Assembly (NCBI GenBank): GCA_949289855.1
Contig: CASEPS010000004.1
Location: forward strand, 1-64,000
Direction: 5' to 3'
From: an uncultured Erysipelotrichaceae bacterium
GTDB lineage: Bacteria; Bacillota_I; Bacilli_A; Erysipelotrichales; Erysipelotrichaceae
Length of the DNA stretch: 64,000 nt
Every line of letters starts with the position of its first letter. Position 1 is the stretch's first letter. Positions 1,892-55,538 of the stretch are shown here, piece by piece. The notes below the pieces were generated by a model. The model saw only the letters and a list, made by a program, of their open reading frames with translations, did no database searches and was not told the origin of the DNA. A program made the position numbers and the translations under genes.

Positions 1892-1934
1892 CACATGTTA
1901 CCTGCTTTTTGCAAGGGCAAAGCAGAAAAAAGTT

Positions 1935-1974: not shown

Positions 1975-1982
1975 AACAAGTG

Positions 1983-2009
1983 TTAGCAATCATACATCGT
2001 GAGTGCTAA
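1983..2009. promoter_or_regulatory. CIRCE operator 2
   Basis: TTAGCAATC, nine bases, GAGTGCTAA. The right arm is perfect and the left arm has one mismatch, the mirror of operator 1, where the left arm is perfect. The site covers the predicted start of the groESL transcript, so it could also act in the mRNA leader. Confidence 0.9.
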
Positions 2010-2032
2010 GGTGTTAGACAGGAGGCAATTGT

Positions 2033-2336: not shown

Positions 2337-3950
<1,614 letters not shown>

Positions 3951-7536: not shown

Positions 7537-8144
7537 ACGTTTACGATTTTGACAATACGATTTATCGGGGTGATTCCACCTTCCAGTTTGTTTTATGGCT
7601 TTATGGTCATCGTCCGATTACATTGATTTCTTTACCGAGGACGCTTTTCTTTGGTGTGTTATATGGATTGCATGTAGTGCCAAAACTCACCTTCAAGGAA
7701 AACCTCTACCACATGTTTGTCTATGTAAAAGATATGGATATAGCAGCAGATACATTTATCAAAAGTCATCTCGACCAGATCAAAACATGGTATGCTGGGC
7801 AACAACGGGAAGATGATGTTGTCATTTCTGCTTCACCAGAGTTTATGATCAGCCGTTTTTGTAAAGCACTTGGCATCCGTTATGTGATGGCTTCAAAGGT
7901 GGACATGCATAGTGGGAAGTACACTGGCATCAATTGCCATGGAACCGAGAAGGTACGTCGCTTTCATGAACATTTCACCGTGAAAAGCATTGATGAATTC
8001 TATAGTGATTCTTTGAGCGATTCGCCATTGGCTGCTATTTCTCAAAAGGCATTTCTTGTCAAAGGGGATAAGATGTCCCTTTGGCCAGATGAGGCAATTG
8101 AAAAAGCAAGGCGGTTGATGAAAGAGGAAAATCTTAGTTTCTGA
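7533..8144 (+). CDS. HAD-superfamily phosphatase
   Basis: A 203-residue cytosolic protein starting MNVYDFDNTIYRGDST. Motif I is DFDNT (nucleophile Asp5, general acid Asp7), motif II is the serine in ISASPEF, and SDSLSDSPL is the acidic motif IV that binds Mg. The layout resembles the IB-type/phosphoserine-phosphatase-like HAD enzymes. The substrate is unknown. The upstream extension of the same frame lies inside the preceding gene; the ATGA overlap and AGAGAGG before it set the start at 7533. Coupling to the membrane protein suggests one pathway, perhaps processing of a phosphorylated lipid or sugar (inference). Confidence 0.85.
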   Translation: MNVYDFDNTIYRGDSTFQFVLWLYGHRPITLISLPRTLFFGVLYGLHVVPKLTFKENLYHMFVYVKDMDIAADTFIKSHLDQIKTWYAGQQREDDVVISASPEFMISRFCKALGIRYVMASKVDMHSGKYTGINCHGTEKVRRFHEHFTVKSIDEFYSDSLSDSPLAAISQKAFLVKGDKMSLWPDEAIEKARRLMKEENLSF

Positions 8145-27121: not shown

Positions 27122-30100
27122 ATGAATCTGAAAAGAAATCTAAAAAAAGGTTTAGCTGTAGTATTCTCGGCAATGATGATGACATCTGGAATGAATATTC
27201 CAATTGTAGCTGAAGATACAGTTAAAGATGATCCTTCACAGATGCATATTGTATATGGTCTTGGTGAAGGTAAAATCACTGTGACACAGAATGGCGAAAC
27301 CACAGAACTTACATCTGGTGCGTCAGGTGAACAGCAGGTTTTTACAGTACAGGGTAATGAAAATGAACCAGTAGAAATTACTGTTGAAGCCGGCACTGAT
27401 TTCAATGTAGAACGTTTCAGTGAATACATTTATGGTGCTGAAGCAGATGAAATCACAACTTATGTATCAGAACCAACAAAAACAGTATCTCAGACTATTA
27501 ATATCAGTATGGGTAAGATTGTGGAAATTGCATTCACTGATCCGGTGATGCGAAATGAGGTGATGCCACTTGGACCCGCATGTTCAATGGGACAGTACCA
27601 GAGTCATGGGTTTGCTGGTTTGGCGGATTTTGCAATGACACAGATTGGAACCCCTTACGCAACAGGTGGCACAGGATTTGGTTTATATGATTGCTGTGGA
27701 TTAGTCAGCAGAGCATTCTGGGCTATTGGATGGACAGGTTATGAAAATCCTCCCGGATTCCATAACACAAATGGCTGGCATAACATTCTGCAAGCTGTAG
27801 GATTTGAATATAGTGATATTGATCTTGCTCAAGGCTTCAATCCTGCAGCATATCCAACACAAAGAGGCGATATTGCTATTTTCTACAATGAACACGGAAT
27901 TGCTGGACCAAACGCTGTACATGCTGCCATTATGCTGGATAACAATAACATGGTCGGTGCTTTGTATCAGGGAGTCACAAATCAGATTCCTGTATCCAAC
28001 TGGTATACACAATCTGGTTTAGGAGCAAAAGATTCAAGATATGTGAGAATTTATCATCTTTCATATCAGCCGGAAATTCCAACAACAGTTACTGTAACCA
28101 AGACATCTACTAAAGCAGATGTCACTAATGGCAACAGTCTGTATTCAATGGAAGGTGCAGAATACACCATTTATAGAGATCAGGCATGTACACAGGCACT
28201 TACAACTGTAACAATTGGCGCTGATGGAAGAGGTACATCAGGAGAGTTTACACTGGATACTCCTAATGCAACTACTCTGTATGCAAAGGAAACAAAAGCG
28301 CCAAATAATGGTTCTTATAAGCTGAATCAGTCAGTCATTTCGTTTACAGTTCAGAATGGTAGCGGTAGCTTTACTGCACAGGATGAACCAATCAATGACC
28401 CTTTAATGATTCAGATCAGCAAACTTTCTGAAGATAATGAGATTATTGATAATCCATCTTCTCTTGAAGGTGCTGAATTTACAGTCAAGTATTACACTGG
28501 TGAGTACAATACACTCGAAGAACTTGCTGGTGTAGAGCCGACAAAGACATGGGTTCTCGGAACAAAGAAATTAGGAAGTGTTTATGCAGCTCTCCTTTCT
28601 GATGAATATAAAGTAGGTGGAGACGATTTTTATTATTCGTCTAATGGTACTCCTGTTCTTTATTTAGGAACACTCACTATTGAAGAAACGAAAGCTCCAG
28701 TTGGTTATACTAAAGAAGGTGCATTGAGCTTTAAAGTAAATAATGAAACTCAAGAAGCAGAACTTATTGATGGCGTTGCATTATTTAAATTATTGAATGA
28801 AAACAGTCAAGTTGCATTCAAGACAGCCAATGGTCTTTCCATTGATAATGCTGAACTGATCAAGGAAGAACGTTCCATTCGTGGCGGTTTCTCTTTGAAC
28901 AAGACAGATAGCCAGACAGATACACAGTGGCAGGGTGATGCTACAAATCTTCAGGCTACATTTACTCTCCATAACGACAACAACTTTGATGCTGTTATGA
29001 GAGATTCTGATGGTACTGTTCTTGGTTCAGCAGAAGCAGGACAGGATTTTAACTATAAAATCACAACTGATGCTTCCGGTAACTGGACATCACCAGCTGG
29101 ATTCCTTCCTGTTGGTAAGTATACATTAAGGGAATCATCTGCTCCTAATGGATATAATCTGACAAACACAACATATCAGTTTGAAATCACTGAAACAAAT
29201 ACAAATATCAATATTGATCATGTATTCAAGAATGATATTATTCGTGGTGGTTTCAAACTCCAGAAGAACGATACAGTTCTTGGAACAACTCCACAGGGTA
29301 ATGCGAATCTGAAAATTGAATTTGAAGTTTATTCTAATTCCAATTCTCCAGTAGTAGTAAATGGTGTCACATACCACAAGGGCGACCTTGTATGGTCCGG
29401 TACAACAAATGATCAGGGCTATTATGAGTCACCAGCTAACCTTCTCCCATATGGTACATACACATTGAAGGAAAAAGCAGCTCCTACTGGTTACCAGTAT
29501 GAAGGCAGCCTTCAGACAGTATTTGAAATCAGACAGAATGGAACATTAGTTGATCTGACAACTGGTCAGATTTCTGATGAAGTCACTCGTGGTGGTTTCA
29601 AGGTTCAGAAAAACGATACTGATCTTGATGCTGAAGCACAGGGATCAGCAAACCTTTCAATGGAATTTGAAGTTGTCAACAACAGCACAAATCCTGTAGT
29701 TGTTAATGGACAGACATATGCAAAGGGCGAAGTCGTATTCACAGGAACAACTAATGAACAGGGTGTATATGAATCCGCTTCTGATCTTCTTCCTTATGGT
29801 GATTACATTTTGAATGAAACAAAAGCACCTGTAGGATATACAGACAGAGGAAACAAGTCAGTTGAATTTACTGTATCTGAAGAAGCAGTCATTATTGATC
29901 TGACTGATGACATTACAAATGAAGTCATTCGTGGCGGTTTCAGAGTTCAGAAGAAAGATAAAGAAACAGCTACCCGTCCACAGGGGGATACAGATTTTGC
30001 AATGACATTTGAGGTCGTTACAAACAATGAACATCCTGTAGTAGTCAATGGTGAAACATACGAAAAGGGTGATGTTGTTTATACGAATTCCACAAATGCT

Positions 30101-33100
30101 GAAGGTATTTTCGAATCTGTAAATGATCTTCTTCCTTATGGTAACTACACATTGAATGAAGTTAAGCCACCTGTTGGTTATACAACTGATGGTAATTTGT
30201 CCGTCACATTCGATATTTCTGAAGATACAGCAATCATTGATCTGACAAACGTAATCAATAACCGTGTTGTACTTGGTGGCCTCAATCTCCACAAAGTTTT
30301 CACAGACGTTGAAGGAACAAACTGGACTGAAAATGAATCAGGTGCTGTATTTGCAGTAGTCAGAGATACATATGTTGAACAGTACGGTTCTGTAGCAGAA
30401 GCAATTGCTCATCAATATGGTGTAACAACTGCTGAAGTTACAAATCGCGACTGGCTCTATGAAAATCTGTTTGTTGATAGTGATACAGCAGATACACTGA
30501 ACAAAGACGGTTCTAACGCAGATCTTATGACTGGTCATGAATATGCAGTCATCAGAACAAATGCAGATGGCAATGCCACAACAGGAGAAAAGGTTCTTGC
30601 TTATGGCAATTACACAGTTGCACAGCTTGCTTCCGGTGAGGATGAAATCACAGTAACTGATCAAAAGTACAATGTAACTATCAATGGTGATGGTACAATG
30701 CTTCAGCTTCAGGCTTCCAATATTCCTCAGACTTATTTCATCAGAATGGTCAAGAGAGATGCTGATACAGGTGAACTCAGCACATTTAATTCTGCTGAAT
30801 TCAAGATCTTCCAGCTTGAAGATGTCCGTGGTGAAGAAGTTAACGAGTATGTAACAATGAAGGTTGGTTCTGTAGTGTATGACACATTCAGAACAACATC
30901 AGATAATGGTTCCAATGATCTTCCATCTGGAACATTCTATGCCGTTGGTGAATCTGCTGGTACAGTAACAACTCCACTCAAACTTGAATCTGGTTTGTAT
31001 AGAATTGAAGAAGTTGCTACACCTGATGGTTTTGTCACATCCGAACCAATTGAACAGGTTGTAAGACTTGCTAATATTTCCGAAACTGATGAAGAAGATA
31101 ACAACTTCATCACTGTTACAATTGCTGACCCAAGAGCTTATGGTGAACTTGTTATCAACAAGTCAATTGTTGATACAGCTGCAGATACAGATCTTATTCC
31201 TGCTGATGTACTCAGCAAGATTGAATTCACACTGACTGCTGCTGAAGACATCATCAATCCTGATGATGGAACAGTTCTTACAAAGAAGGGTGAAGTTGCC
31301 AAGGATATCCTTGGTAATACAGTAGGAAAGTTCAACCTCAACGCAGAAGGCAAGGCAACAGTATCCAAGATTGCTCTTGGTAAGTACCTGCTGACAGAAA
31401 CATTTATTCCTGATGAACTTGCTGTTAACACAGAAACATGGAATGTTGACTTCATTCAGACAGAAGGCGATGTAACAACACAGGTTTACAATGTCACACT
31501 TGATATTGAAAACAAGCCTACTTACATCGAACTCTCCAAAAAGGCTGTCACAGGTGATGATGAACTTCCTGGCGCTCACATTCAGGTAATTGAAAAGGAT
31601 ACTGGAATTGTTGTTGATGAATACACATCAACTGAAACTCCACATTCCATCAAGGGTCTGAAGCGTGATACAACATACATCATGCGTGAAACAATCACTC
31701 CAAATGAAGGTGAGTATATCAAGGCAACCGATATTGAGTTTACTGTTAACGCTGATGGATCTGTAAAGACAGTCACAATGATTGACAAGCTCGTCACTCT
31801 CAGAAAGAGCGATGTGAATGACAATCTTGCAGCTGGTGCTGAAATTACAATCACTGGTACAAATGGTGAAACAGTTGATGTAATCACAACTGATGGAGAA
31901 AACACATTCCACATCTATAACCTGACCGCTGGCGAAACATACAAGGTTTCTGAAACAGTTGTTCCTGAAGGATATGTCAAGTTCAATGATTTCACATTTA
32001 CAGTTCTTGATGATGGCAAAGATCAGACTCTGGAAATTGTAAATAAGAGAGTCAGTGCCACAAAGATCAATACAGCTGGTGAAGCAATCTCCGGCGCTGA
32101 AATGAATGTTACTGATGTCAATGGAAATATCATTGACAGCTGGACAACAGATGGAACAGATCATTATATTAACGGCCTCGTTGAAGAAAATGATTATGTT
32201 TTGAATGAAGTCAAAGCTGCTAATGGTTATGTCATTGCAACATCTATTCCATTCACAGTTACTGGTGCTGATGATCAGAACATCAAAGTTGATCAGAATG
32301 TAACAATGACTGACAAGACAGTTGAAATCCAGAAGGTTGATATGTGTGGTGTCAATGTTGATGGCGCACAGCTTACAGTCTATGAACTGGACGAAAATGG
32401 CAATGTCATCACTGAAACAGTTATGGATGAAGCTGGTAATCCGGTAGAACAGCCAAAGGTTGTTGATCAGTGGACAACAGTTCTTGGAATGCATCATTAT
32501 GCAAACAATCTGATTGCTGGTCATACATATAAGGTAGTTGAAACATTTGTCCCAGAAGGATATACGAAAGCTCCTGACTATGTATTTACAGTAGCAGATG
32601 ATGGCAAGGATCAGACTGAAACAATCGTCAATAAACAGGTACTGATTTCCAAAGAGACAGTTGGTGGTGAACCAGTAGAGGGCGCAATCCTCACAATTAT
32701 TGACAAGGAAACAGGCGAAGTTGTTGACAGATTCGTAACTGAAAAGACAAAGCATGAATCCAACAATCTTGAAGTTGGCAAGACATACATTCTGCACGAA
32801 GACACAACACCGGCAGGATTTGTAACAGCAACAGATGTTGAATTCACTGTAACTGAAGACGGTGTTGACCAGACAGTTACTATGGTTGATGCAGTCGAGG
32901 AAGTTGCTAAGGTCGATCAGAATGGCGATCTTCTCAAGGGCGCATCTCTTGAACTTGTTAATGAACAGGGTGAAGTCATTGATTCCTGGATTTCCGGAAG
33001 ACATGTCATTGATCTTACAGAAGAACAGATAACAGATCTTGAATCTGGCAAGTTTGTAGAAACAGTGATGGAAGATGGCAGAACAGCTGAAATCATTGTT

Positions 33101-34507
33101 ACTGACAAGAATGTAACATCTACACCAGATGAAAAGCCTGAAGAAACAGATGATCCGGAAGCAGGAGATGATAAGGAAGACGTATGTGAAATCAAATATG
33201 CAGAACCAGCTGAAGAGCTGACTGAAATTGAAGTCACAGAAGATTCTGACCTTGCATTTACTCTTGTCATTACGAATGAAGACGGTTCCAAGGAATATAT
33301 CAACATTGATCTCAATGGTGATGAAACTACTCACAGACTCAATAACACAGTAGCTGGTACAAAGTACACAGTACGTGAAGTTGACGAAGTTGATGGATAT
33401 TATTTCGCTGAAAACCAGGAAGTCAATGTAACTGGTACAGAAGATCACACAACAACAATGATTGATAACATCATCAACTATCGTATCAACAAGGTTGATG
33501 AAGATGGAAACAACATTGCTGGTGTTCTGATGTCCATGAAGGATATTACAGATCCAGAAAATCCGGTCGATGTAGAACTGCCAAATGGTGGTGTGACTAC
33601 AGAACTAGGATTTGATCTGACTGGTATTCTTATTGCTGGTCACAGATACGAGATTACAGAAGAAAGAACAGTTCCAGGCTATTCAATGCCACAGGTATCT
33701 ACAATGGAATTTGTAGTGCCAACACACGGAAGTGCTGAATGGACAGTTCTGAACTTCGAAAATCTCTCCAATGCAATTGCAGTATCCAAGGTAGACAATG
33801 CTGGCAAGCCACTTGCTGGTGCAAGGATGCAGATCATCGAAGCAACTGTTGCAGAGGATGGAACAATTACTGAAGGTGATGTAGTTTACGAATTCACAAC
33901 AACAGACACACCGACAGACATTTCCGATTATGTAAAGGGTGGAGATGGAACTCAGTACATTCTGAGAGAAGTCGAAAGTCCATTCGGATATGAAGTAATC
34001 GAAGACATGCTCTTTACAGTAGACATGGCAAAGCCTGGCACTGCACAGCTGCTCACAGCTGTAGACAGTCTTGAACATGTATTTATCAAGGCAGTCAAAG
34101 TTGATGCTGCTGATCACAACAAGGTGCTTGAAGGTGCAGAACTTACACTTTTCACAGCAGATGGTGAAATTGCAAAGACTGTAGACGGCAAGGATGCTGT
34201 AGCTGTCACTGATGAAAACGGTGAGATTTACTGGGAAGTTGAATATGCTGAAGGCATGTATGTTCAGGAAACAAAAGCACCTGAAGGTTACAAGCTCAAC
34301 TCCAATTTCCATGAAGTCAAGATTGGTGAAGATTATACATTCGTAGAAAATGAGCCAATTGAAATCATGGTTGCGGATGAAGCAAATCCAAAGACTGGTA
34401 TTACTTCCGGAATCGGTGGAATGATTGCAATGGCTGGAATGGCCGGCGCACTTGGCGTATTGCTTTACAGCATGCGCAAAAAGGAAAAGACATCCGAAGC
34501 TGAGTGA
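27122..34507 (+). CDS. Giant sortase-anchored SpaA/Cna_B adhesin with NlpC/P60-like head
   Basis: 2461 residues. Signal peptide (1-31, ending NIPIVAED). Residues ~150-325 are an NlpC/P60-like domain: FAMTQIGTPYATGG, the active-site motif D190-C191-C192-G-L and the His at 267 (NAVHAAIML). From ~325 on, about twenty SpaA/Cna_B-type domains follow, each ending in E-box-like KETKAPNNGSY, RESSAPNGY, NEVKAANGY or similar. Such domains form Lys-Asn isopeptide bonds that stiffen a long stalk. The C-terminus is NPKTG, a hydrophobic helix and RKKEK: a sorting signal. It would be a wall-attached rod with a possible peptidoglycan- or amide-cleaving head. GGAAAGGAG lies upstream of ATG. Confidence 0.9.
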   Translation: MNLKRNLKKGLAVVFSAMMMTSGMNIPIVAEDTVKDDPSQMHIVYGLGEGKITVTQNGETTELTSGASGEQQVFTVQGNENEPVEITVEAGTDFNVERFSEYIYGAEADEITTYVSEPTKTVSQTINISMGKIVEIAFTDPVMRNEVMPLGPACSMGQYQSHGFAGLADFAMTQIGTPYATGGTGFGLYDCCGLVSRAFWAIGWTGYENPPGFHNTNGWHNILQAVGFEYSDIDLAQGFNPAAYPTQRGDIAIFYNEHGIAGPNAVHAAIMLDNNNMVGALYQGVTNQIPVSNWYTQSGLGAKDSRYVRIYHLSYQPEIPTTVTVTKTSTKADVTNGNSLYSMEGAEYTIYRDQACTQALTTVTIGADGRGTSGEFTLDTPNATTLYAKETKAPNNGSYKLNQSVISFTVQNGSGSFTAQDEPINDPLMIQISKLSEDNEIIDNPSSLEGAEFTVKYYTGEYNTLEELAGVEPTKTWVLGTKKLGSVYAALLSDEYKVGGDDFYYSSNGTPVLYLGTLTIEETKAPVGYTKEGALSFKVNNETQEAELIDGVALFKLLNENSQVAFKTANGLSIDNAELIKEERSIRGGFSLNKTDSQTDTQWQGDATNLQATFTLHNDNNFDAVMRDSDGTVLGSAEAGQDFNYKITTDASGNWTSPAGFLPVGKYTLRESSAPNGYNLTNTTYQFEITETNTNINIDHVFKNDIIRGGFKLQKNDTVLGTTPQGNANLKIEFEVYSNSNSPVVVNGVTYHKGDLVWSGTTNDQGYYESPANLLPYGTYTLKEKAAPTGYQYEGSLQTVFEIRQNGTLVDLTTGQISDEVTRGGFKVQKNDTDLDAEAQGSANLSMEFEVVNNSTNPVVVNGQTYAKGEVVFTGTTNEQGVYESASDLLPYGDYILNETKAPVGYTDRGNKSVEFTVSEEAVIIDLTDDITNEVIRGGFRVQKKDKETATRPQGDTDFAMTFEVVTNNEHPVVVNGETYEKGDVVYTNSTNAEGIFESVNDLLPYGNYTLNEVKPPVGYTTDGNLSVTFDISEDTAIIDLTNVINNRVVLGGLNLHKVFTDVEGTNWTENESGAVFAVVRDTYVEQYGSVAEAIAHQYGVTTAEVTNRDWLYENLFVDSDTADTLNKDGSNADLMTGHEYAVIRTNADGNATTGEKVLAYGNYTVAQLASGEDEITVTDQKYNVTINGDGTMLQLQASNIPQTYFIRMVKRDADTGELSTFNSAEFKIFQLEDVRGEEVNEYVTMKVGSVVYDTFRTTSDNGSNDLPSGTFYAVGESAGTVTTPLKLESGLYRIEEVATPDGFVTSEPIEQVVRLANISETDEEDNNFITVTIADPRAYGELVINKSIVDTAADTDLIPADVLSKIEFTLTAAEDIINPDDGTVLTKKGEVAKDILGNTVGKFNLNAEGKATVSKIALGKYLLTETFIPDELAVNTETWNVDFIQTEGDVTTQVYNVTLDIENKPTYIELSKKAVTGDDELPGAHIQVIEKDTGIVVDEYTSTETPHSIKGLKRDTTYIMRETITPNEGEYIKATDIEFTVNADGSVKTVTMIDKLVTLRKSDVNDNLAAGAEITITGTNGETVDVITTDGENTFHIYNLTAGETYKVSETVVPEGYVKFNDFTFTVLDDGKDQTLEIVNKRVSATKINTAGEAISGAEMNVTDVNGNIIDSWTTDGTDHYINGLVEENDYVLNEVKAANGYVIATSIPFTVTGADDQNIKVDQNVTMTDKTVEIQKVDMCGVNVDGAQLTVYELDENGNVITETVMDEAGNPVEQPKVVDQWTTVLGMHHYANNLIAGHTYKVVETFVPEGYTKAPDYVFTVADDGKDQTETIVNKQVLISKETVGGEPVEGAILTIIDKETGEVVDRFVTEKTKHESNNLEVGKTYILHEDTTPAGFVTATDVEFTVTEDGVDQTVTMVDAVEEVAKVDQNGDLLKGASLELVNEQGEVIDSWISGRHVIDLTEEQITDLESGKFVETVMEDGRTAEIIVTDKNVTSTPDEKPEETDDPEAGDDKEDVCEIKYAEPAEELTEIEVTEDSDLAFTLVITNEDGSKEYINIDLNGDETTHRLNNTVAGTKYTVREVDEVDGYYFAENQEVNVTGTEDHTTTMIDNIINYRINKVDEDGNNIAGVLMSMKDITDPENPVDVELPNGGVTTELGFDLTGILIAGHRYEITEERTVPGYSMPQVSTMEFVVPTHGSAEWTVLNFENLSNAIAVSKVDNAGKPLAGARMQIIEATVAEDGTITEGDVVYEFTTTDTPTDISDYVKGGDGTQYILREVESPFGYEVIEDMLFTVDMAKPGTAQLLTAVDSLEHVFIKAVKVDAADHNKVLEGAELTLFTADGEIAKTVDGKDAVAVTDENGEIYWEVEYAEGMYVQETKAPEGYKLNSNFHEVKIGEDYTFVENEPIEIMVADEANPKTGITSGIGGMIAMAGMAGALGVLLYSMRKKEKTSEAE
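30286..34500 (+). repeat. Long diverged direct duplicate, copy 1
   Basis: The C-terminal ~1400 codons of this adhesin gene are closely similar at DNA level to 51346-55430 of the second giant adhesin gene. For example ACATTYAATTCTGC and GATGTCCGTGGTGAAGAAGT recur in the same order. The copies differ in number of stalk domains and by an insertion at about 32996-33350. This pair can recombine. Confidence 0.8.
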
Positions 34508-35910
34508 TCTGCTTCAGACATAACCTCCTTTACTTGCAGGAAGAAGGGGAAACTCTTCTTCCTCTTATGTTTCAATCAGGCGCATGAACCTGAAAGAAAC
34601 ACTACTTCTTAATCTGGATACTAGCGATAGATTCAGAAAATTGGGTCACGCTGTCAGTCGCCCTCATAAATCAAAAGTATTTTCCATTTCGAAATACTAC
34701 TCGGCTGACAGCATATTATCCCTTCAAACGGCGCACGAACCGGAAGAAGGGTAAGTCGATTGTTACTCTTTCCTATTACATTGCCGTTACCTGAAACGGC
34801 AGCCGTCACAAAAGTGGCGGTTTCAAATATCCGGTGACAGCGCATGAACTGCCATTGGATACACCATCCAAAGGAAGTTGATAAGCAGTAAAATATCTGT
34901 TTTTGATGCTTCCTCCCCTTATGGTCATAAAAAGCGCAGGAACTTGATATGACCGCAAAATTCCCAGTTAATAAGCTATACAATTAACCCAAAAATTGTG
35001 TGGGAACTTATTCTTCCGCAAATAAGTTAATTTTTGGCATAACTATTCTCGCTTTCATAACTGGGCAGCAATACAGGGCTGATATGCATAATCATATTAA
35101 ACCCTGTATTTTCATCTGTTCTGAAATGGTGCAGGAACCAGATCAGAGCCATATTTTCTTCTCTTTAGCTGTTGTTAAGCAGCAGCCGTCAGTATGCCAA
35201 CTGGCGGCTTGATTATGTTTCCAGATGGCGCATGAACCAAATGGAGACGTTTTTCATCTTTTTGTGAATCTGGTTTCACAAAGTCCTCTGGAAGCACATA
35301 TTGCCCCTCAAGATATCGGATATGCAACATAACTGATTCATAATTGTGCTTCCTCCATTATGTCTGAAAAAGGCGCATGAGCCTTGATTGGACAGCACTT
35401 CATATGCTGCATTGTTAAATGCAGAAACTGGGAGTTCATAACTCATCAGGTGTTCTGAACTTCCTTTTTATCATGCTGACAAAAGGCGCACGAACCTTTA
35501 GCCGGCACATCAGCCACCTGATGTCCCAGCTGGTAAAGAACGCATCCAATATGAAACATGCATTTTTTGCTGGCAGATTCTGATCTGATTTTTGCAGATT
35601 TCAATGATCAGAATCACACTGCCGGTCATACCGGTATAGTTTCTGATTGGATTTCTTCACACCATAGAAAGAAAATCGGAAATCAAAAGTGAAATACATG
35701 TCCTGTTTTAACCCTGACAACAACCGCTTCATGAAAACAGGTTTGTGTTTCATCTTATTATGTTCTCTGAAATCGCACGAATTTTTCAGAGGACAGATAT
35801 TTTCATACTGGTAAATTATCATTTGGTTTACCAGCCTCCGAAGAAGCACAGGGTGTGCTGTGCTTCTGTCCTTATGTCTGTGTACGGTGCATGAGCCGGA
35901 ACAGGCTATT
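34508..35910 (+). ncRNA. Tandem array of ten two-stem units with conserved octaloop (unknown RNA or ssDNA element)
   Basis: No gene is present. Ten hairpins, each with arms of about 12 nt around an eight-base loop YGCRNGAR. Loop starts: 34581 CGCATGAA, 34732 CGCACGAA, 34841 CGCATGAA, 34935 CGCAGGAA, 35130 TGCAGGAA, 35229 CGCATGAA, 35374 CGCATGAG, 35487 CGCACGAA, 35774 CGCACGAA, 35888 TGCATGAG. Most arms close on GG/CC, followed by A-G/A-A mismatches at pairs 4-6, then 5-7 pairs. Arm sequences differ but pairing is kept. Before each lies another stem, e.g. GGAAGAAG/CTTCTTCC (34539-34562), CTGTCAG/CTGACAG, GGAAGCACA/TGTGCTTCC, often followed by a short tail ending TTATG. Unit spacing is 94-287 bases. 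I recognise no named family. Confidence 0.75.
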
Positions 35911-36011: not shown

Positions 36012-36785
36012 ATGAAGAAGAAAAAGAAGATTAACAAAAAACTGATTGTAATTGATGTTCTGATACTTGTGATTATTGCAGTCATAGGTGTCCAGGGATA
36101 CCGGATCTATAACAGGTATCAGGAATTAAATCAGACAAAGGTTACAGCAGAAAACATCAAAAGAGAAATCGGAGCATTTGAAAATGAAGAATGGAAACCT
36201 GATCAGGAAACCTATAAAAACCTGAAAGCAGAAAATGATGATTATATCGGATGGCTGCTATGGGATTCCGGTATCATATCCGAACCAATTGTTCAGGGTG
36301 AATCAAATGATTCCTATATCAGAAGTGATTTCTATGGAAATTATGATGAATTTGGAACAGTGTTTATGGATTCCCTGGCAAACATCAGAGATGATAACAT
36401 TCCGATTTACGGTCATGCTATGACTGGTGTATATACAGATACCAGAAAATTTTCGCAGCTTCAGAATATGACAAAACAGGAATTCTACGAAGCAAATAAA
36501 ACATTTTCGATTTACCGGGCAGATCAGGTTACTCATTATGAAGTCATATCTGCTTTTCTGATAGATGTTAACAGTGACAACTGGAATTACACGCAGAATG
36601 TATTTACAAATGATACGGATAAACAGAACTGGATAAACCAGGCTTTATCAAGATCTGAAATCAATACCGGATTAACCGCAGATACAGATGACAGATTTGT
36701 CACATTGCAGACATGCCGGGACGGGTATTCCGGATGGCGATATATAGTAATCGGAAGACAGACTGGTATTGAATCACTGTATTGA
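36012..36785 (+). CDS. Class B sortase
   Basis: 257 residues. One N-terminal membrane helix (residues ~10-30) and an extracellular sortase barrel. Class B features: the N-terminal helical region before the barrel (LKAENDDYIGWLLWDSGIISEPIVQG), the catalytic His in IPIYGHAM (about 134), the catalytic Cys in VTLQTC (about 234) and the Arg in GWRYIVIG. It cleaves sorting signals and attaches proteins to the wall; class B enzymes in other Firmicutes use NP-TN or (S/P)P-TG motifs, so the PKTG adhesins here are the likely substrates (inference). AGGAGA precedes ATG. Confidence 0.93.
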   Translation: MKKKKKINKKLIVIDVLILVIIAVIGVQGYRIYNRYQELNQTKVTAENIKREIGAFENEEWKPDQETYKNLKAENDDYIGWLLWDSGIISEPIVQGESNDSYIRSDFYGNYDEFGTVFMDSLANIRDDNIPIYGHAMTGVYTDTRKFSQLQNMTKQEFYEANKTFSIYRADQVTHYEVISAFLIDVNSDNWNYTQNVFTNDTDKQNWINQALSRSEINTGLTADTDDRFVTLQTCRDGYSGWRYIVIGRQTGIESLY

Positions 36786-44898: not shown

Positions 44899-45505
44899 AT
44901 CCACAGCAGTGTGTGTATGCACATTGCTTTTATTATCCGGGTGCAAAGGAAAAACAGAAGAAGTGGAAGAAACTTCCAATCCATCAACACCTGGAAATGT
45001 AACTGAATCGGTTGAATCTTACGATTATGAGTTTGGATCAGATGATCAGACATTTGAAGTAATACCTGGTGGTGGTTACTCAGTTCTTGAAGATACATAT
45101 GAAGATGGAACAAAACAGCAATACATCATTAATGCAGATAATGAAGTAGTTGCATCGCTGTATACAGAGCCATCCGAAAAAGAAGGACAGGAACAGTCAA
45201 CACTGAAGACATATGTCCAGAGAGTTTCTGATCAGATGAACTATGGAACGGATGAAGACAGTAAGAATTATACGATTCTGATTAACGAGCCAGAGAAATT
45301 TACCTATCAGTATAAAAATGGTGATGAAACAGACATATTCACCATCATAGAAACCGGAACACCGGAAACACTGATAATTGCGGTAAACGGATATACAAAC
45401 TATGAAGAGGTCCGCGAAAACGTAACAATCAGGACTGCTGAACAGTCTATTTCCCTGGGAGATATACAGAGCGTTTTGGAAAGGTTAGGAGGAGAAAGTC
45501 AATGA
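44882..45505 (+). CDS. Lipoprotein of unknown function in the pilus operon
   Basis: 207 residues, lipobox LSGC (Cys21), followed by an acidic Ser/Thr linker and a beta-rich domain (YEFGSDDQTFEVIPGGGY...). The gene overlaps its upstream neighbour by 17 bases and its downstream neighbour by four (ATGA at 45502-45505), a strictly coupled arrangement between two pilins. It may be a pilus-assembly factor; no motif proves it. Confidence 0.75.
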   Translation: MKRMLKSTAVCVCTLLLLSGCKGKTEEVEETSNPSTPGNVTESVESYDYEFGSDDQTFEVIPGGGYSVLEDTYEDGTKQQYIINADNEVVASLYTEPSEKEGQEQSTLKTYVQRVSDQMNYGTDEDSKNYTILINEPEKFTYQYKNGDETDIFTIIETGTPETLIIAVNGYTNYEEVRENVTIRTAEQSISLGDIQSVLERLGGESQ

Positions 45506-48183
45506 AACAGAAAAAGCGCTATCTTTCGATGGCACTGGCTGCTCTGATGCTTGTGCCGTCATCTTTGACGGTATTTGCGGCAGATGATCCAACCAGTGAC
45601 ATCACGGTGACAGGGGGAACAATTGATCCAAAACTCACCGGTAGTATCACGCTGTACAAGTACCTCGACAACGATGGCAAAACCATTGATGCTGACGGTA
45701 TGCCGTACACAACTCTTGGACAGACTTCACAGGATATGGTTGGTATCATCCGTGAAAAACTCGGAAATGATTCCATCATGCCTGAGAAAAATTCCACATT
45801 CAAGCTGCTGAAGGTTGCAGATATCGAACAGGTCACAGAAAACACAGCTGGAAAGCTGAATACAACAGGAACGTATTATACAAATATTGATTCCGATTTC
45901 TTTGATCTGATGAATGAGTATCTGGTAGAAGATCTTGTAGCTTCTGACTCCACAAAGGTAACTGATGGAAGAACAGAAGATGCAGCATCTAACAGAGATG
46001 ATCATTATGAATCTGATGAACTGAATGAAAAGATGATGGATGTCATCCGTATGCCTGGTACAGAAGACAGAGTTACAGGTGAAACAGCAATCAATCGTTA
46101 TGTCAGACAGCACGCTGAATCTGATGAAAAAGAAGGTTATTGCAAAACCTTCAATCCAACAGATGAAAATGGATTTACGTCTCTGGAAAATCTGCCGCTT
46201 GGTCTTTACCTGGTAGCAGAAATTGACTGGGAGCATAAGGCACTTTCCAAGCATGATACTTACTGGGAAGTTGTTGATGATGAAATCGACAATGACACAA
46301 ATTCCGGTGGTATTACTGAAGATGCAGGAACTAATGCGGGTGGTTCTACATCAGCTGGTGTGAATGCAGGTGGATCTACATACGCAGACATTGCTTCTCC
46401 GGCTTCTCCATTCCTGGTATCTGTACCAATGACAAACATCGCAGACATCAACAATGCTGATGGTTCTCTCAAGTACAGTGCTGGTTCTGCATGGATGTAT
46501 GACATCACAGTTTATCCGAAAGCCGGATCTATTAACATTCATAAGGATATTATCACAAATGAATTTACAACATCTGATGATGGAACAGGCAAGCAGCTTA
46601 CATCCAATGATGGTCATGATACAGTTGACACAGAATCCCTCTGTGATTTTGTTCAGACAAACTATGACAGACTGACAACAAAGCTTGACGGATCTGAAAA
46701 AACAGGTCTTACACATCAGATCGATGCAAACATTGGTGATACGATTACACAACTGATTTCTTCTGATGTACCGGTTCTTGTTGATGATATTGACAATGAA
46801 CAGACAGGTGCTAATCACGAAACTGTCGAACGTAAGCACAATGCTAAGTATGTCATCACTGACCGCATGACCAAGGGTCTGAAGCTCATTGATACATCGT
46901 CTTTCAAGGTCACAATGGGTACAGGCGCATGGAATGATGACGTTGCAAATCAGTTGTTTACACTTGGTGAAGATTACACAGTTGATATTGCTGAAGACAA
47001 GCAGAGCTTTACTCTGACTGTTACTGAGAAGGGCCTTGATAAGATGGACGACATCACAGATGCTTCTTATTTCTATGTTGTATATGACTGCGTACTCACA
47101 AAGGATGCTCTGATCGGTACTGATACATATGGTGATCAGAAACAGGTAAATAAGGCTGATCCAACAACAGAAGGTGAACTCTCTTCCGGTGCTGCTTCTG
47201 ATTCCCTTGATACAGTCAAGAGTGAAACATATGATTCCACATACACATCTGGTGCAAACGATGAAGGTACAGAAGTTGTTCAGCATGCTGATGCAACAAA
47301 CCAGAACACTGCTGAATTGACATATGCAACAGACCGTACACAGGAGCATGATTACTACTCCAATACAACAAAAGTTTTCACATATGAAATTGATCTTACA
47401 AAGCTGTTCACAGATGGTACACAGGGTTATGTATCCAAGAATGAAGAAGGACAGCCTTCCTTCCAGTACAGCGATGTAGTATTCAAAGTTGAAGGTGATG
47501 TTGTTGAAGGTTCTGAAGATGCATTCTACAACGATGAAGACAACAACGGATATGAAGATATTCTGTTCTGGAGAGATGACGCTGGTCGTTACCACGTCTA
47601 TGATCCATGGACACATTCCGATCTCTGGAAGACAGGTGATGCTTCCTATGAGAGTCAGTATGTAGCTGAAGGCGATACAATTGATACACCAGAAGGTGAA
47701 CGTAAGATTACAAGATACATTTCTCCAAGTGATACAGGTCTTCTGACAATTGTTGGTCTTGATGATCGTACATACAGATTCACTGAACTCAAGACAGCAC
47801 AGGGCAGAAACCTGATGGCTGAACCATTCTATGTTGAAATCGTTGCTCCTATGGTTGAACGTGAAGGCAAGGATGGCAAGGAAATGGTTAAGCTTGAAAA
47901 TGGTCAGGTTGAGCATGCTTATGTCTGGACAGGTGATAAGCCAGAAGGTGAAGCACTTGAAGGTGTAGATCTTGCTAACAGCACTGAAGATACTCAGTAC
48001 AGACTTGATAATGGTCGCGTTCCATTCGTAGTACAGAACAACGAAGTTATCAAGATTCTTCGTACTGGTGGCAAGGGCACAACACTGATGTTTGTCGGTG
48101 GTGCATTCATGATCGGTGTTGCAGCAGCATATGTCTTCATTTCCCGTAAAAAGAAGGAAGAAGATACTGCTGAAGAACAGTAA
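45502..48183 (+). CDS. Backbone pilin 2, LRTGG sorting signal
   Basis: 893 residues, a diverged paralogue of the pilin at 40354 with the same domain order. Signal peptide ending VFAADD; GSITLYKYLDNDG; IASPASPFLVSVPMTNI; pilin-like motif AWMYDITVYPKAGSINIHKD (Ala for the usual Asn after YPK); KTGLTHQIDANIGDTI; E-box YRFTELKTAQGRN; C-terminus ILRTGGKG, membrane helix, RKKKEE. It is longer than pilin 1 because of Gly/Ser/Thr-rich insertions, one near residues 268-293 (GGITEDAGTNAGGSTSAG). It follows AGGAGG and overlaps the previous gene by ATGA. Confidence 0.88.
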   Translation: MKQKKRYLSMALAALMLVPSSLTVFAADDPTSDITVTGGTIDPKLTGSITLYKYLDNDGKTIDADGMPYTTLGQTSQDMVGIIREKLGNDSIMPEKNSTFKLLKVADIEQVTENTAGKLNTTGTYYTNIDSDFFDLMNEYLVEDLVASDSTKVTDGRTEDAASNRDDHYESDELNEKMMDVIRMPGTEDRVTGETAINRYVRQHAESDEKEGYCKTFNPTDENGFTSLENLPLGLYLVAEIDWEHKALSKHDTYWEVVDDEIDNDTNSGGITEDAGTNAGGSTSAGVNAGGSTYADIASPASPFLVSVPMTNIADINNADGSLKYSAGSAWMYDITVYPKAGSINIHKDIITNEFTTSDDGTGKQLTSNDGHDTVDTESLCDFVQTNYDRLTTKLDGSEKTGLTHQIDANIGDTITQLISSDVPVLVDDIDNEQTGANHETVERKHNAKYVITDRMTKGLKLIDTSSFKVTMGTGAWNDDVANQLFTLGEDYTVDIAEDKQSFTLTVTEKGLDKMDDITDASYFYVVYDCVLTKDALIGTDTYGDQKQVNKADPTTEGELSSGAASDSLDTVKSETYDSTYTSGANDEGTEVVQHADATNQNTAELTYATDRTQEHDYYSNTTKVFTYEIDLTKLFTDGTQGYVSKNEEGQPSFQYSDVVFKVEGDVVEGSEDAFYNDEDNNGYEDILFWRDDAGRYHVYDPWTHSDLWKTGDASYESQYVAEGDTIDTPEGERKITRYISPSDTGLLTIVGLDDRTYRFTELKTAQGRNLMAEPFYVEIVAPMVEREGKDGKEMVKLENGQVEHAYVWTGDKPEGEALEGVDLANSTEDTQYRLDNGRVPFVVQNNEVIKILRTGGKGTTLMFVGGAFMIGVAAAYVFISRKKKEEDTAEEQ

Positions 48184-48201: not shown

Positions 48202-48232
48202 AAAGGCACAGGTAAATAACTTGTGCCTTTTT
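48202..48232 (+). terminator. Terminator after backbone pilin 2
   Basis: AAAGGCACA (48202-48210) pairs with TGTGCCTTT (48222-48230), then two more T. It is the first stem of an octaloop unit whose second stem is at 48239. Confidence 0.85.
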
Positions 48233-48238
48233 CCGTAT

Positions 48239-48270
48239 GTTTTCAAGTGGTGCGTGAGCCATGAGAAAAC
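48239..48270 (+). ncRNA. Single octaloop hairpin between pilin 2 and the second giant adhesin
   Basis: GTTTTCAAGTGG, loop TGCGTGAG, CCATGAGAAAAC. Six lower pairs, G-T/A-G/A-A mismatches, three closing pairs, octaloop of the type YGCRNGAR. It follows a terminator and CGTATG like the units in the 34.5-35.9 kb array. Confidence 0.72.
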
Positions 48271-48314: not shown

Positions 48315-51300
48315 ATGAACAAGTTTCTGAAGAAACTGCGAGCCATAGTAAGTTCACTTGCTGTGGCTGGTATGGTTCTTTCAAGCGGGCAAGGGTTTCA
48401 ATATTTCACAAAAGCTTATGCTGAATCTAATATAAAGAATTTTAATTACCAATTTGAAGTTTCCTTAGTCGACTTCGAAGGAGTTGATTTGAAATTATTA
48501 GATAAATCATCAGTAAAACTCGAAGATTGGAAGGCTATCTTAATTGCATACGAAGATATTACAGATTCTGATGGAAATGTAATAATGCACAAGGGAGACC
48601 CTGCAATCGATATAAATGGCGACCCTATAGAATTTTATTTTGATGAGCTGAATCTTGATGGTTCTACTTATACTAATCATAATATATTAGGAAAGGCTAT
48701 TTCACTTGGGAACCTTGTATTCAATAAAAAGAATTATTCCGTATATGATGGAAAGTATAGATTAAAAATTACTGATACTGGGCCAGGATTCCACAAATCG
48801 ATAGGTTTTGATGATATTGATTTAACAAAGGATAACTATTTTATTTTTTCTCAAAGTTTAAATACACTGCATGTGTATACACTATCCTATCTAAATCATA
48901 ACATACCCGAATTAACGGATGATTTCGCATTTAATATTTTATCCGCTGAGGATAATTCATTAATTTGTTCATTCGAGCCACATTTAATAACTGAAGAAGA
49001 GGCTAATACGGGAAGATATGTTGGAGAATTGGATTACTATATTAGTGGATTAAGTGCAGGCGACTATATCATCGAGTCCACAAAAACTCCCAATAATATA
49101 AAGCCTATTAAACAACTATTTACAATAAATGAATATTCAGATTCTTCTAATACGGGTGTTCGACTGAATCTTGAACCTGTAGATAAAGAAGTATCAATTG
49201 ATGTAACAAAGAAATCTTCTAATCCTGAGATGACTGACAGCAATTCCCTCTATTCTCTTGAAGGTGCTGTTTATTCTCTGTACACAGATTCACAGTGTGC
49301 TACTGAACCGGTAGGTTCTGTAACAATCAATGCTGAAGGTAAGGGTACATCTGAAACAATCACGCTTGATCCAGATGTAACAACACTTTATGCAAAGGAA
49401 ACGACTGCTCCAACAAATGGTTCTTATGAACTGAATCCGGAAATTATTGAAGTTCCTATTCAGGAAAACAAGGGCAGCTTCACAGCTACAGACACACCTA
49501 TTTCTGATCCATTGAACATTGCAGTCAGAAAGACAACTCCGGATGGAGATGTAGTTGCTAATCCTGCTTCACTTGCTGGTGCTGAGTTCACAATCAATTA
49601 CTATAACGGTGATTATCCGACACTTGATGATCTTGCTGGTGTAGAGCCAGATGAGCAGTGGGTTCTCAAGACAGAAAAGGGCGCTGATGGAACATATTCT
49701 CTTAATATCAATGAAGAATTCTTCCTTGGTACACTGACTATCCAGGAAACCAAAGCTCCAAACGGCTATACAACAAAGGGTGGTCTTGAATATACAGTGA
49801 ATGGGGAAACAAAGACAGGCGCAACAGATAACGGTGTAGCACTGTTCAGACTGTATAACGAAAATGGTACTGTCACACTGAAATCAGCTGACAATGCAGT
49901 AGTAGATAACTCTTCTGTATCCAAAGAAGATGAAGTTATCCGTGGTTCTCTTGAAGTCACAACAACTGATGCTGAAGTTGGCGGAGTAGTACAAGGTGAT
50001 GCAAAGAATCTCAGTGCAACATTCACACTGCATAATGACAACGATTATGACGCAGTTATGAGAGATGCTGAAGGCAACGTACTTGGCACAGCTGCTGCCG
50101 GACAGGACTTCAACTACACAATCACAACTGATGAATCTGGTTATTGGAAGTCTTCAGATAACTTCCTCCCTGTAGGAAAGTACACATTGAGAGAAACAAC
50201 TGCTCCGGAAGGATATATTGCTTCTGATGAACAGTACACATTCACACTGAGTGCAGGAACAACATCCATTTCTGTTAATGATATTTTCAAGAACACAATC
50301 ATGAGAGGTGGATTTGAATTCCAGAAGAACGACTCTGTACTTGGTGCACAGGCACAGGGTAATGCCGAACTTGAAACAAAATTCGCTGTATATAATATCT
50401 CATCTCATGCAGTTACAGTGAATGGCGTAAGCTATCCGGTTAATGCCAAGATCTTCGAAACTTCTACAGATGAAAATGGTTACTATAAGACAACTGCAAA
50501 TATGCTTCCTTATGGTACATACAAGCTTGTAGAAACAGAAGCTCCGGAAGGTTATACACTGAATGGTGTAACAGAAACAACATTCTCCATCAGAAACAAT
50601 GGTGAAGTTGTTAACCTCAAGGAACAGAAGATTTCTGATGAAGTCATCCGTGGTGGTTTCAAGGTTCAGAAATATGATTCCGAACTTGAAAGTGGCGCAC
50701 AGGGTGACGCAGGACTTCAGATTTCTTTCGATGTCATTTCCAATTCTGATAAACCAGTGGTTGTAAATGGCGTTACATACAATAAAGGTGATGTAGTTCT
50801 CAGTGCTTCTACAGATGAGAATGGCTATTATGAGTCAACAGCAGATCTTCTTCCTTATGGTGATTACACACTGAAGGAAACAGCTGCTCCGACTGGTTAT
50901 CACATGCAGGGCGACCTCGAAGAATCCTTTACAATCTCCGAAAACGGAACAATTGTAGATCTTACAGACCATAAGATTACAGATACAGTAATCCGTGGTG
51001 GTTTCAAGGTTCAGAAACATGACGTTTTCACAGGCACACGTCCGCAGGGTGATACAAATCTCCAGATGACATTTGACATCATCAACTCTTCTCCAAATGC
51101 AGTCATTGTAAATGGTGAAGAATATGCTTCTGGTGAAACAGTTTATACTGCTTCCACTGACGAAAATGGTTACTTTGAATCAACAGATACACTTCTTCCA
51201 TATGGTACATATACCCTCAGAGAAACAAAAGCTCCTGTGGGATATACATCTGATGGTGTAATTGAAACAGTATTCACAGTCAGAGAAGAAGGTGGAATCA

Positions 51301-54300
51301 CTGATCTTACAGATCATAAGATCCAGAACAGACCGGTTCTTGGCGGTGTAGCAATCCATAAGGTTCTCACAGACGTTGAAGGCACTAACTGGACAGAAAA
51401 TGAAGAAGGTGCAATCTTCGGTATTGTCAAGAATTCCTATGTTGAGCAGTATGGTTCTGTAGCAGAAGCTATTGCTCACCAGTATGATGTAACAACTGCT
51501 GAAGTTACAAACCGCGACTGGCTCAATGCAAATCTGTTTGCTGAAGGCAATACAGCTAATACAGTGAACCAGGATGGTACAAATCCTGATCTTATGACAG
51601 GTCACGAATATGCAGTCATCAGAACGGATGCAAACGGTGATGCAACAACAGGTGAAACAGCACTTGCATTTGATGATTACACAGTTGCACAGCTTGCTTC
51701 TGGTGATGATGAAATCACAGTAACTGATCAGAAGTACAATGTAACAATCAGTGAAGATGGTACTGTTATTCAGCTCCAGGCTTCCAATATTCCTCAGACT
51801 TACTTCATCCGTATGGTCAAAAAAGATGCTGATACTGGTAAGCTCAGCACATTCAATTCTGCAGAATTCAAGATCTATCAGCTTGAAGATGTCCGTGGTG
51901 AAGAAGTTAACGAATATGTAACAATGAAGGTTGGTTCAGTTACATATGATACATTCAGAACAGCATCCGCAAACGGTGCAGAAGATCTTCCATCTGGAAC
52001 ATTCTATGCAGCTGGCGAATCCGCGGGTTCTGTAACAACACCACTCAAGCTTGAATCCGGTCTTTACAGAATTGAAGAAGTCGGTACACCTGATGGATTC
52101 ATCACAACAGATGCAGTTGAACAGGTTGTAAGACTTTCCAATATTTCTGAAACAGACGAAGAAGGCAACCATTTCATTACAGTAACAATCTCTGATCCAA
52201 GAGCTTATGGTGAGCTTGTAATCAATGATGTTATTGCTGAAACAGCTGCTGATGCAGATCTCATTCCTGCTGATATCCTCAGCAAGATTGAATTCACTCT
52301 GACTGCTGATGAAGACATCATCAATCCTGATGATGGAACAGTTCTCACAAAGAAGGGTGAAGTTGCCAAGGATATTCTTGGTAATACAGTAGGCAAGTTC
52401 AACCTCAATGCAGAAGGCAAGGCAACAGTATCCAAGATTGCATTTGGTTCTTACACTCTGACACAGACATATATTCCTGATGAACTCGCAGTCAACACCG
52501 AAACATGGGATGTTGATTTCGTTCAGGCTGAAGATGATGTAACAACACAGGTTTACAATGTCACACTTGATATTGAAAACAAGCCAACAGTTGTTGCACT
52601 CTCCAAGAAGGATGTATCTGGTGAAGGCGAACTTGCTGGTGCCTCTATGCAGATTGTAGACGGCGAAACAGATACAGTTGTCGCTGAATACACAACAGGA
52701 GAAAAGGTATATACAGTCAAGGGCCTCAAGCGTGACAACGTTTATCTGATGCGTGAAATTGCTGCACCAAATAATGGTGAGTATGTAAAGGCAAAGGATG
52801 TTAATTTCGAAGTCAACGATGATGGTTCTTCCAAGACTGTAACAATGATCGACAAACTCGTAACACTGAATAAGACTGACGTAAATGACAGCCTTGTTGC
52901 TGGTGCAGAAATCACAATCACTGATGCAAAGGGTGAAACAGTTGATGTAATCACAACTGACGGTGAGAATACATTCCGCATTCATAACCTGACAGCTGGT
53001 GAAACATACAAAGTTTCTGAAACAGTTGTTCCAGATGGTTATGTGAAGTTCAACGATTTCACATTCACAGTCGCTGATGATGGCAAGGATCAGACACTTG
53101 ATATTATTAACAAGATTGTTTCCGTATCCAAGGTTGATGCTGAAGGCAATCCTGTATCCGGTGCTGATATGATTGTTATTACTGAAGACGGTGCACCTGT
53201 AGACAATTGGACAACAGATGGTACAGCACACAATGTAAGCGGTCTTGAAGAAGGCAGAGAATATATCCTGAGAGAAAGCTCTGCTCCGGAAGGATATGTA
53301 AAGGCTAATGACATCACATTTACAGCTGAAGGTGCAGATGAAAATGGTGTCAAAGCTGATCAGTCCATTGAAATGACTGACAAGAAGGTTACAGTTACCA
53401 AGAAAGATGTTGATGGTAACTTTGTAACTGGTGCAGAAATCACTCTGACAGACAGATATGGTAATGTTGCTGACAAGTGGACAACTGGTGAAGAAGGATA
53501 TAATCCATCCAACCTGGTTGCTGGTGAAACATACACTGTATCTGAAACAGTCGTTCCTGCCGGTTATGTGAAGTTCAATGATTTCACATTCACAGTTGCT
53601 GACGATGGCAAGGATCAGACACTTGATCTCGTAAACAAGATTGTTTCTATTTCCAAGGTCGATGATGAAGGTAATCCTGTAACTGGTGCTGAAATGGCAA
53701 TTCTTGATGGCGAAGGCAACACAGTAGACAGCTGGACAACAGATGGTACAGATCACAATGCAAGCGGTCTTGCAGAAGATGGTGAGTATGTACTCCGCGA
53801 AGTAAAGGCAGCTGAAGGATATGTAAGAGCAAATGACATTGCATTCACAGCCGATGGTGCTGATGAAGAAAATATCAAAGCAAATCAGACAGTTGTCATG
53901 ACAGACAAGCAGCTTGTTCTGAATATCACTGATTCCGAAGGAAACCCTGTAGAGGGTGTCGGCGTTGCACTCATTGATAAGGATGGTGTAACAGTTGATA
54001 CATGGACATCTGATGAAACTGGAAAGTATGCAGCATCCAATCTGATTGTTGGCGAAACATACACTGTATCTGAAACAGCTACTCCTGCCGGCTATGTGAA
54101 GTTCAATGATTTCACATTCACAGTCACAGATGATGGCAAGGATCAGACAGTAACAATCGTCAATAATGTTGAAACAGTAGCCAAGGTTGACCAGGATGGT
54201 GAATTCCTCGCTGGTGCTTCTCTTGAAGTAGTTGACAGTGAAGGCACAGTCATTGATTCCTGGATTTCTGGTGAAGAAGGACACAATGTAAGCGGACTTG

Positions 54301-55465: not shown

Positions 55466-55500
55466 TAAAGGCACAGAAAACATATTATCTGTGCCTTTTT
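55466..55500 (+). terminator. Terminator after the second giant adhesin
   Basis: AAAGGCACAGA (55466-55476) pairs with TCTGTGCCTTT (55487-55497), followed by T. It shares the AAAGGCACA core with the terminator at 48202. Confidence 0.85.
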
Positions 55501-55506
55501 ACATAT

Positions 55507-55538
55507 GTCGTTCATTGGCGCATGAACCAATGAACATC
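55507..55538 (+). ncRNA. Single octaloop hairpin between the second and third adhesin genes
   Basis: GTTCATTGG, loop CGCATGAA, CCAATGAAC: nine perfect pairs and the most frequent octaloop. It follows a terminator and ACATATG, as in the other units, and ends 33 bases before the next start codon. Confidence 0.75.

Follow-up and report, generated by a model that had tools for sequence, protein, structure and literature searches.

In the cip-cel operon of Ruminiclostridium cellulolyticum, stem-loops that flank a cut protect the products (PMC10311766), and the leader of pilA2 in Clostridium perfringens is cleaved by RNase Y beside a predicted stem-loop (PMC7395162). Here we analyse a 64-kilobase (kb) stretch of DNA from an uncultured Erysipelotrichaceae bacterium of the gut or rumen (contig CASEPS010000004.1, positions 1 to 64,000; hereafter the window), which carries twelve small hairpins with an octaloop of the form YGCRNGAR. 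All lie on the + strand, ten of them in tandem at 34566-35907 and the other two singly at 48251 and 55519. The hairpin looks like a real shared RNA signal, and like a family absent from the RNA databases searched. Probably, it is a cis-acting, protein-read signal placed between cistrons in Bacillota phages, mobile elements and some chromosomal operons.

Fold and covariation of the window hairpins

The ten tandem units occupy 1.4 kb, with a spacing of 94-287 nucleotides (nt), and fill a 1.5-kb gap that holds no convincing open reading frame, between a gene for a surface protein of 2461 amino acids (aa) and a sortase gene. The setting is a long co-directional cluster of surface-protein genes. 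An earlier note, made from the letters of the window, had described tandem hairpins with a shared loop and with arms that vary while pairing persists; all twelve loops were located where that note had placed them. The copies are as follows.

34566..34600, +, copy 1, UAUG foot, loop CGCATGAA at 34581, stem GTTTC-AA-TCAGG / CCTGA-AA-GAAAC
34717..34751, +, copy 2, UAUC foot, loop CGCACGAA at 34732
34826..34860, +, copy 3, AATA foot, loop CGCATGAA at 34841
34920..34954, +, copy 4, UAUG foot, loop CGCAGGAA at 34935
35115..35149, +, copy 5, TCTG foot, loop TGCAGGAA at 35130
35214..35248, +, copy 6, UAUG foot, loop CGCATGAA at 35229
35359..35393, +, copy 7, UAUG foot, loop CGCATGAG at 35374
35472..35506, +, copy 8, CAUG foot, loop CGCACGAA at 35487
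35759..35794, +, copy 9, UAUG foot, loop CGCACGAA at 35774, one-base asymmetry
35873..35907, +, copy 10, UAUG foot, loop TGCATGAG at 35888, one-base asymmetry
48236..48270, +, copy 11, single, loop TGCGTGAG, between surface-protein genes 45502-48183 and 48315-55451
55504..55538, +, copy 12, single, loop CGCATGAA, between surface-protein gene 48315-55451 and gene 55572-57980

Taken by itself, the loop pattern occurs in the window no more often than chance predicts (47 sites, 50 expected). When complementary 12-nt arms with at least 9 of 12 pairs are required as well, 10 sites are seen on the + strand and 0 on the - strand; in 40 dinucleotide shuffles, the two strands combined average 0.48 sites, with no more than 3 in any shuffle. 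The copies at 35774 and 35888 fold with a one-base shift. Across the twelve copies, 85.0% of cells are paired, compared to 60.8% in 500 shuffles, and the covariation score is 0.774, compared to 0.297; 0 of the 500 shuffles reach either observed value, and changes on both sides are seen in 9 of 10 pairs. The window copies are thus hairpins, with arms that differ and pairing that is kept. Selection on the folded single strand, also proposed in the earlier note, is supported by this covariation and again by that of phage copies found by loop sequence alone (below).

The foot of the window hairpins, in copies that were picked by loop, reads TATG in 8 of 12 and ATG in 9 of 12, in line with the claim that TATG precedes most copies. 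A block of A-G/A-A mismatches is present as had been noticed, but not at fixed pairs 4-6; its position shifts between arm positions 6 and 9. Among the array units, the inter-hairpin sequence is not conserved and the arms differ, so that the repeats are centred on the loop only.

A separate stem had been reported before each copy. For 10 of 12 window copies, dinucleotide-shuffled sequence rarely yields a stem as good as the best one upstream (p<=0.03), and this stem ends at most 22 nt from the hairpin foot. Since a true T run follows only 3-4 of the 12 (35430-35464, 48202-48230, 55467-55498 and, in part, 35070-35110), 'terminator' is an unfit label for all of these stems. The array contains 5 terminator-like sites, versus 0.9 expected. 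The upstream stems, with p values against shuffles, are these.

34538..34563, +, upstream stem of copy 1, p=0.01
34650..34712, +, upstream stem of copy 2, 11 base pairs (bp), long loop, p=0.01
34801..34822, +, upstream stem of copy 3, p=0.06
34883..34911, +, upstream stem of copy 4, p=0.16, alone not significant
35070..35110, +, upstream stem of copy 5, TTTT tail, p=0.03
35184..35209, +, upstream stem of copy 6, p<0.01
35290..35353, +, upstream stem of copy 7, 9 bp, long loop, p<0.01
35430..35464, +, upstream stem of copy 8, TTTTT tail, terminator-like, p=0.01
35689..35753, +, upstream stem of copy 9, p=0.02
35842..35867, +, upstream stem of copy 10, p=0.03
48202..48230, +, upstream stem of copy 11, TTTTT tail, intrinsic-terminator-like, p<0.01
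55467..55498, +, upstream stem of copy 12, TTTTT tail, intrinsic-terminator-like, p<0.01

Copies in other genomes and phages

The accepted set comprises 32 distinct copies, 12 in the window and 20 elsewhere, the weakest being L090 7791-7829 at 19 bits. Outside the window, the hosts are Lactimicrobium massiliense, several Oscillospirales/Clostridia and their prophages, and phages of IMG/VR. Evidence is cleanest for the copies from a stricter set of viral scans, run with GGYGCATGAACC and GGYGCATGAGCC, the loops seen most often, since stems played no part in their selection. The scans gave 10 matches, all stemmed, of which three are one sequence. In the eight distinct phage copies, 56 of 72 free positions pair; when arms were swapped among the copies, the mean was 33.0 and the maximum 53, and 0 of 20000 trials reached 56. 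A viral scan in which the loop was defined more loosely can be taken as a null; it returned chance-like stems with 2-4 of 9 pairs.

A covariance model built from the 12 window copies (R1) recovers only those copies in the bacterium's own genome. Among 273 genomes of the family, it detects at least one further copy, in L. massiliense, of the same genus. Frequencies from such genome searches are lower bounds, as 17-150 candidates were scored per genome and the genomes are partly draft. In L. massiliense, too, a separate stem precedes the hairpin; downstream of the hairpin come a transposase gene and then the gene of a surface protein (1189 aa) that has a C-terminal anchor. As far as we searched, there is no second ten-fold array.

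An exact pattern (TTATG, loop and closing bases, with the arms left free) gave 16 matches in 85,000 species genomes. In four of these, L051, L043, L044 and L052 (Bacillota by title), 6-8 of 9 free positions pair, versus about 3.4 by chance. L055 and L057, from other phyla, have 6 of 9 pairs and were counted neither as copies nor as chance, which also holds for L136 and L137. R1 applied to 248 relatives of L044's genome yielded L075, L077, L078 and L079. L075 and L077 occupy the same site upstream of the same gene, yet their arms differ and stay complementary. In 394 genomes of L044's order, the pattern scan found one genome with 3 matches in phage-like contigs, to which the model adds a fourth, weaker one. 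Many other pattern matches in relatives, and some in other phyla or viral contigs, lack stems and were set aside as chance, and L076, L030 and L031 were likewise rejected (coding or unpaired). Relatives of the phage gene beside the L090 hairpins have tRNA arrays and no full-length hairpin. The motif's invariant loop bases, strong covariation, presence in several phages and absence from databases suggest that it has an RNA-binding partner in Clostridia and Erysipelotrichia.

Consensus and strand

A consensus of 26 copies consists of a pyrimidine-rich linker, (U)UAUG, a 12-bp stem and the loop Y-G-C-R-N-G-A-R. At the foot, A is found in 25 of 26 copies, U in 26 and G in 24, this G being the first base of the stem. 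The stem has purine mismatches around pairs 7-9 and a closing GG/CC, and within the loop G19, G23 and A24 are invariant. One caveat here is that the pattern searches preset UAUG and part of the loop, and hence conservation of these positions outside the window is partly imposed. The linker is pyrimidine-rich in most copies, the exceptions being L075, L077 and L079.

Two lines of evidence favour RNA over single-stranded DNA. In 20 copies, G-U pairs outnumber A-C mismatches by 27 to 8, a ratio weakened by the fact that RNA-type scoring helped select some of the copies. In addition, the hairpins share a strand with the downstream gene wherever that gene was identifiable. The + strand of the window therefore likely acts as RNA.

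Gene surroundings

The common order is a stable upstream helix (a terminator-like stem or, sometimes, a tRNA 3' end), a UAUG linker, the hairpin and a gene on the same strand. At the window singles, gene, terminator-like stem, UAUG-hairpin, ribosome-binding site and gene follow one another, with 33-44 nt from hairpin to ATG. Downstream of the terminator-like stems, the gaps before genes 48315 and 55572 are narrow and contain no + strand consensus promoter, so these genes probably need transcripts that cross the module.

Elsewhere, the hairpin lies between a stem that follows a capsid-like gene and a ribosome-binding site before terminase (L113, TATATG-hairpin), between a stem after a peptide-binding protein gene and a permease gene (L052), and between a stem and an ABC permease gene (L078). 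In L079, a gene for a sigma-region-4 protein is followed by terminator, stem, hairpin, HNH-like gene and packaging genes; L142 and L144 have a similar layout, with the upstream protein assigned by eye only. In all three, the gene upstream of the hairpin is a probable late regulator. L043 lies in the early region of a prophage, where the hairpin follows a strong terminator, and in L089, L090 and L139 it comes immediately after the apparent 3' end of a tRNA-like gene. L075 and L077 have no upstream stem; here the order is promoter-like sequence, hairpin, T-run terminator and RNA methyltransferase gene.

The genes that flank the array are given below.

27122..34507, +, upstream gene, 2461-aa surface protein, NlpC/P60 domain near the N-terminus
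36012..36785, +, downstream gene, sortase, 257 aa

By eye, the 2461-aa protein has repeated CnaB-like segments and a C-terminal anchor. The region 27122-63397 of the window holds very large surface-protein genes (2461, 2378 and 1421 aa) together with sortases, with NlpC/P60 N-terminal in one. Upstream, a tRNA array is followed by genes for a DnaB-like helicase and for small phage-type regulator-like proteins, so that a mobile island is a possible identity of the cluster. No octaloop hairpin lies near the second sortase of the same genome (C11). Within the family, the top relatives of the sortase are only about 30-40% identical, and no matching island was found.

Several further elements were seen around the phage copies. 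A gene that resembles tRNA-Leu at its start (GTGCGGTGGCGGAATA..GAC) and closes with a T-arm and acceptor strand (..CCCGCAC) is seen in L090 (7974-8219, -), in L089 (around 7640-7850, -) and on the minus strand of L139, just upstream of the hairpin at 3434-3468. These genes carry an insert of roughly 130-200 nt, ARAGORN makes no call on the gene with its insert, and the octaloop hairpin lies within a few bases of the 3' end. L089 (7250-8650, -) also has several phage tRNA-like genes with inserts of about 30 nt in which a GTG ... ACAGCAA pattern recurs near the anticodon. A second small hairpin, with the loop GAAAGA (e.g. CCCG-GAAAGA-CGGG), recurs in L089, L090 (-) and L114 (near 1630, -), placed before tRNA genes or near octaloop hairpins. 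The non-coding region 1520-2072 (-) of L114 consists of two tandem units, GGCAGGG...TTGAGCTCAACACCTCACCCTGCCG-AYATG-hairpin, with the octaloop in the second only. Directly 3' of the octaloop hairpin, L139/L141/L143 and L138 share the element ACAAGAG..AACGCAYGAGCGGG....CCCGC-GCCTCT, in which the CGCAYGAG motif appears again. L043, a clostridial prophage, has a match to STnc490 (RF01405) above the gathering score at 3425-3533 (-), and the large phage contigs L097 and L098 encode 16-17 tRNAs as well as a predicted tmRNA gene.

A possible divider between cistrons

The sites that recur, namely the heads of phage late operons, the ends of tRNA-like genes and the gaps between pilin-type genes, are ones where differential expression or read-through is needed and remains unexplained in these bacteria. 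As the mechanism, we tentatively favour processing of the RNA within the linker, after which the newly made ends are protected. A protein would recognise the hairpin loop and the mismatch block, and the transcript would be cut within the single-stranded linker. The upstream helix would then close off the upstream RNA (for pilin, capsid, substrate-binding protein or tRNA) at its 3' end and the octaloop hairpin would form the 5' end of the downstream message, such that neighbouring cistrons could be expressed at different levels. The array would be a tenfold repetition of this module, placed between the genes for an adhesin and a sortase. Processing fits the gene order, because a presumably abundant upstream product precedes a scarcer downstream one (capsid and terminase, binding protein and permease, pilin or adhesin and the next gene, tRNA and the next gene), and the succession of stem, linker and stem between cistrons is present, as in stem-loops of the cip-cel type.

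Three points weigh against this reading. The flanks of the cip-cel cut are not conserved (PMC10311766), whereas the loop and UAUG foot here are nearly invariant. The conserved octaloop therefore requires a specific reader. The arrangement in L075 and L077, with a promoter-like sequence, no upstream stem and a terminator after the hairpin, better fits attenuation or antitermination. Finally, a general processing signal would be expected in more than 2 of 273 family genomes, albeit in a shallow screen.

Alternative explanations

The main rival, which we consider rather unlikely, is antitermination, with the hairpin as a boxB-like recruitment site, the linker as a boxA-like stretch and a modified RNA polymerase that passes later terminators. 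Drawn as GNR(N2)A with a closing Y-R, the loop would be an expanded GNRA fold like that of boxB. Such a mechanism would explain modules chained along a giant operon, at phage late-operon heads and at tRNA clusters. It is consistent with the order seen in L075/L077, with the internal terminator-like stems of the window operon (after which there is no + strand consensus promoter), with the several phage copies that follow a probable late-regulator gene, and with the pyrimidine-rich linker of most copies. However, the terminator-like stem is usually upstream rather than downstream of the hairpin, and most stems lack a U run. A hairpin upstream of an intrinsic terminator is seen in L075/L077 and between some array units but not in most single copies, and the linkers of L075, L077 and L079 are not pyrimidine-rich. 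LoaP, the known hairpin-binding antiterminator of Bacillota, has a UNCG-type hairpin (PMC12691694). None of ten carrier genomes, which are partly incomplete, has a LoaP (NF033641) above the 125-bit cut-off, making LoaP unlikely; the bacterium's own genome contains the core NusG only, beside a SecE-like gene.

Processing and antitermination could also be combined. Conceivably, though this is more speculative than processing itself, the hairpin is an undescribed signal with an expanded GNRA-like loop, at which a conserved host protein would choose between a cut and continued transcription at each module. The array would then be a graded gate between the giant adhesin and the sortase operon. The ten copies offer a natural dosage series for the effect of one copy, and the loop could be used as bait for its reader.

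It is improbable that the hairpin is an operator, bound by a translational or transcriptional regulator encoded by a phage or mobile element that represses the downstream gene. An invariant loop over variable stems is typical of protein-bound hairpins, and many copies lie 30-60 nt before a start codon, but most copies inspected leave the ribosome-binding site clear of the hairpin. No shared candidate gene was found, and the chromosomal-looking L052, L075, L077 and L078 argue for a host reader.

We give similarly little credence to an array of small RNAs, in which a regulatory RNA of ~100 nt, released from a precursor, would begin with each octaloop hairpin and end with the stem that follows. 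The hairpin-then-stem order and the spacing of the ten units (94-287 nt, within 1.4 kb lacking a convincing open reading frame) would suit such RNAs. The sequences between hairpins, however, are not conserved among units, and the single copies elsewhere sit in short intercistronic gaps, too small for a separate RNA, and look like intercistronic or leader elements.

A folded single-strand DNA site (an attC-like recombination site, replication origin or transposon end) is highly improbable. Tandem imperfect hairpins in possibly mobile or phage-derived DNA would be expected of one, but the hairpins and the downstream gene are on one strand, G-U pairs are in excess over A-C mismatches, the arms differ between copies unlike those of transposed repeats, and no integron-type boxes or flanking cassettes were seen. 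A six-codon mini-gene, ATG N9 GGY GCR TGA (MxxxGA-stop), suggested by the ATG at the foot, the frequent TGA of the loop and their constant spacing, is largely refuted, as a Shine-Dalgarno-like motif lies upstream of 0 of 26 copies and base pairing is kept where TGA (6 of 26) or ATG (3 of 26) is lost.

Comparison with known RNA families and systems

Rfam 15 gives no match over the array even at E<=10, nor over the hairpins of the related loci scanned, in keeping with the earlier note, by which no named family is known to have this loop. The comparison suggested there with drum, a tandem-occurring Rfam family, was run and revealed no drum match in the array at E<=10; drum RNA (RF02958) is a 112-nt multi-element structure, unlike the hairpin. 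A true drum RNA lies in L044 (3671-3818, an Oscillospiraceae genome), 1 kb downstream of the octaloop hairpin. In the viral contig L138, an int-alpA RNA (RF02996, 3838-3906) lies about 59 nt downstream of the octaloop hairpin and, by eye, in the leader of a Rha-like regulator gene; this RNA is a distinct 71-nt structure of which the hairpin is not part. The array DNA shows only chance-level similarity to phages and plasmids, and a mobile repeat was ruled out, as the arms are not conserved between copies and the repeats are loop-centred only.

ANTAR targets have hexaloops with A1 and G4 in both hairpins. They likewise comprise two adjacent hairpins tied to terminators (PMC3369931), but in the modules described here the second hairpin alone is conserved and its loop is an octaloop. 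In phage operons, the lambda-type nut site (boxA/boxB) likewise places a small hairpin after a short linear element; unlike it, the octaloop copies usually follow a terminator-like stem, and no N-like protein was identified. LoaP and its dfn element provide a case of a small, protein-bound leader hairpin before terminators in Bacillota, although dfn is a UNCG-type hairpin (PMC12691694) and the loop here is YGCRNGAR. The arrangement of the cip-cel operon, with a stem-loop, a single-stranded linker and a small downstream stem-loop between cistrons in Clostridia, resembles that of the octaloop modules, the cut being known for cip-cel only (PMC10311766).
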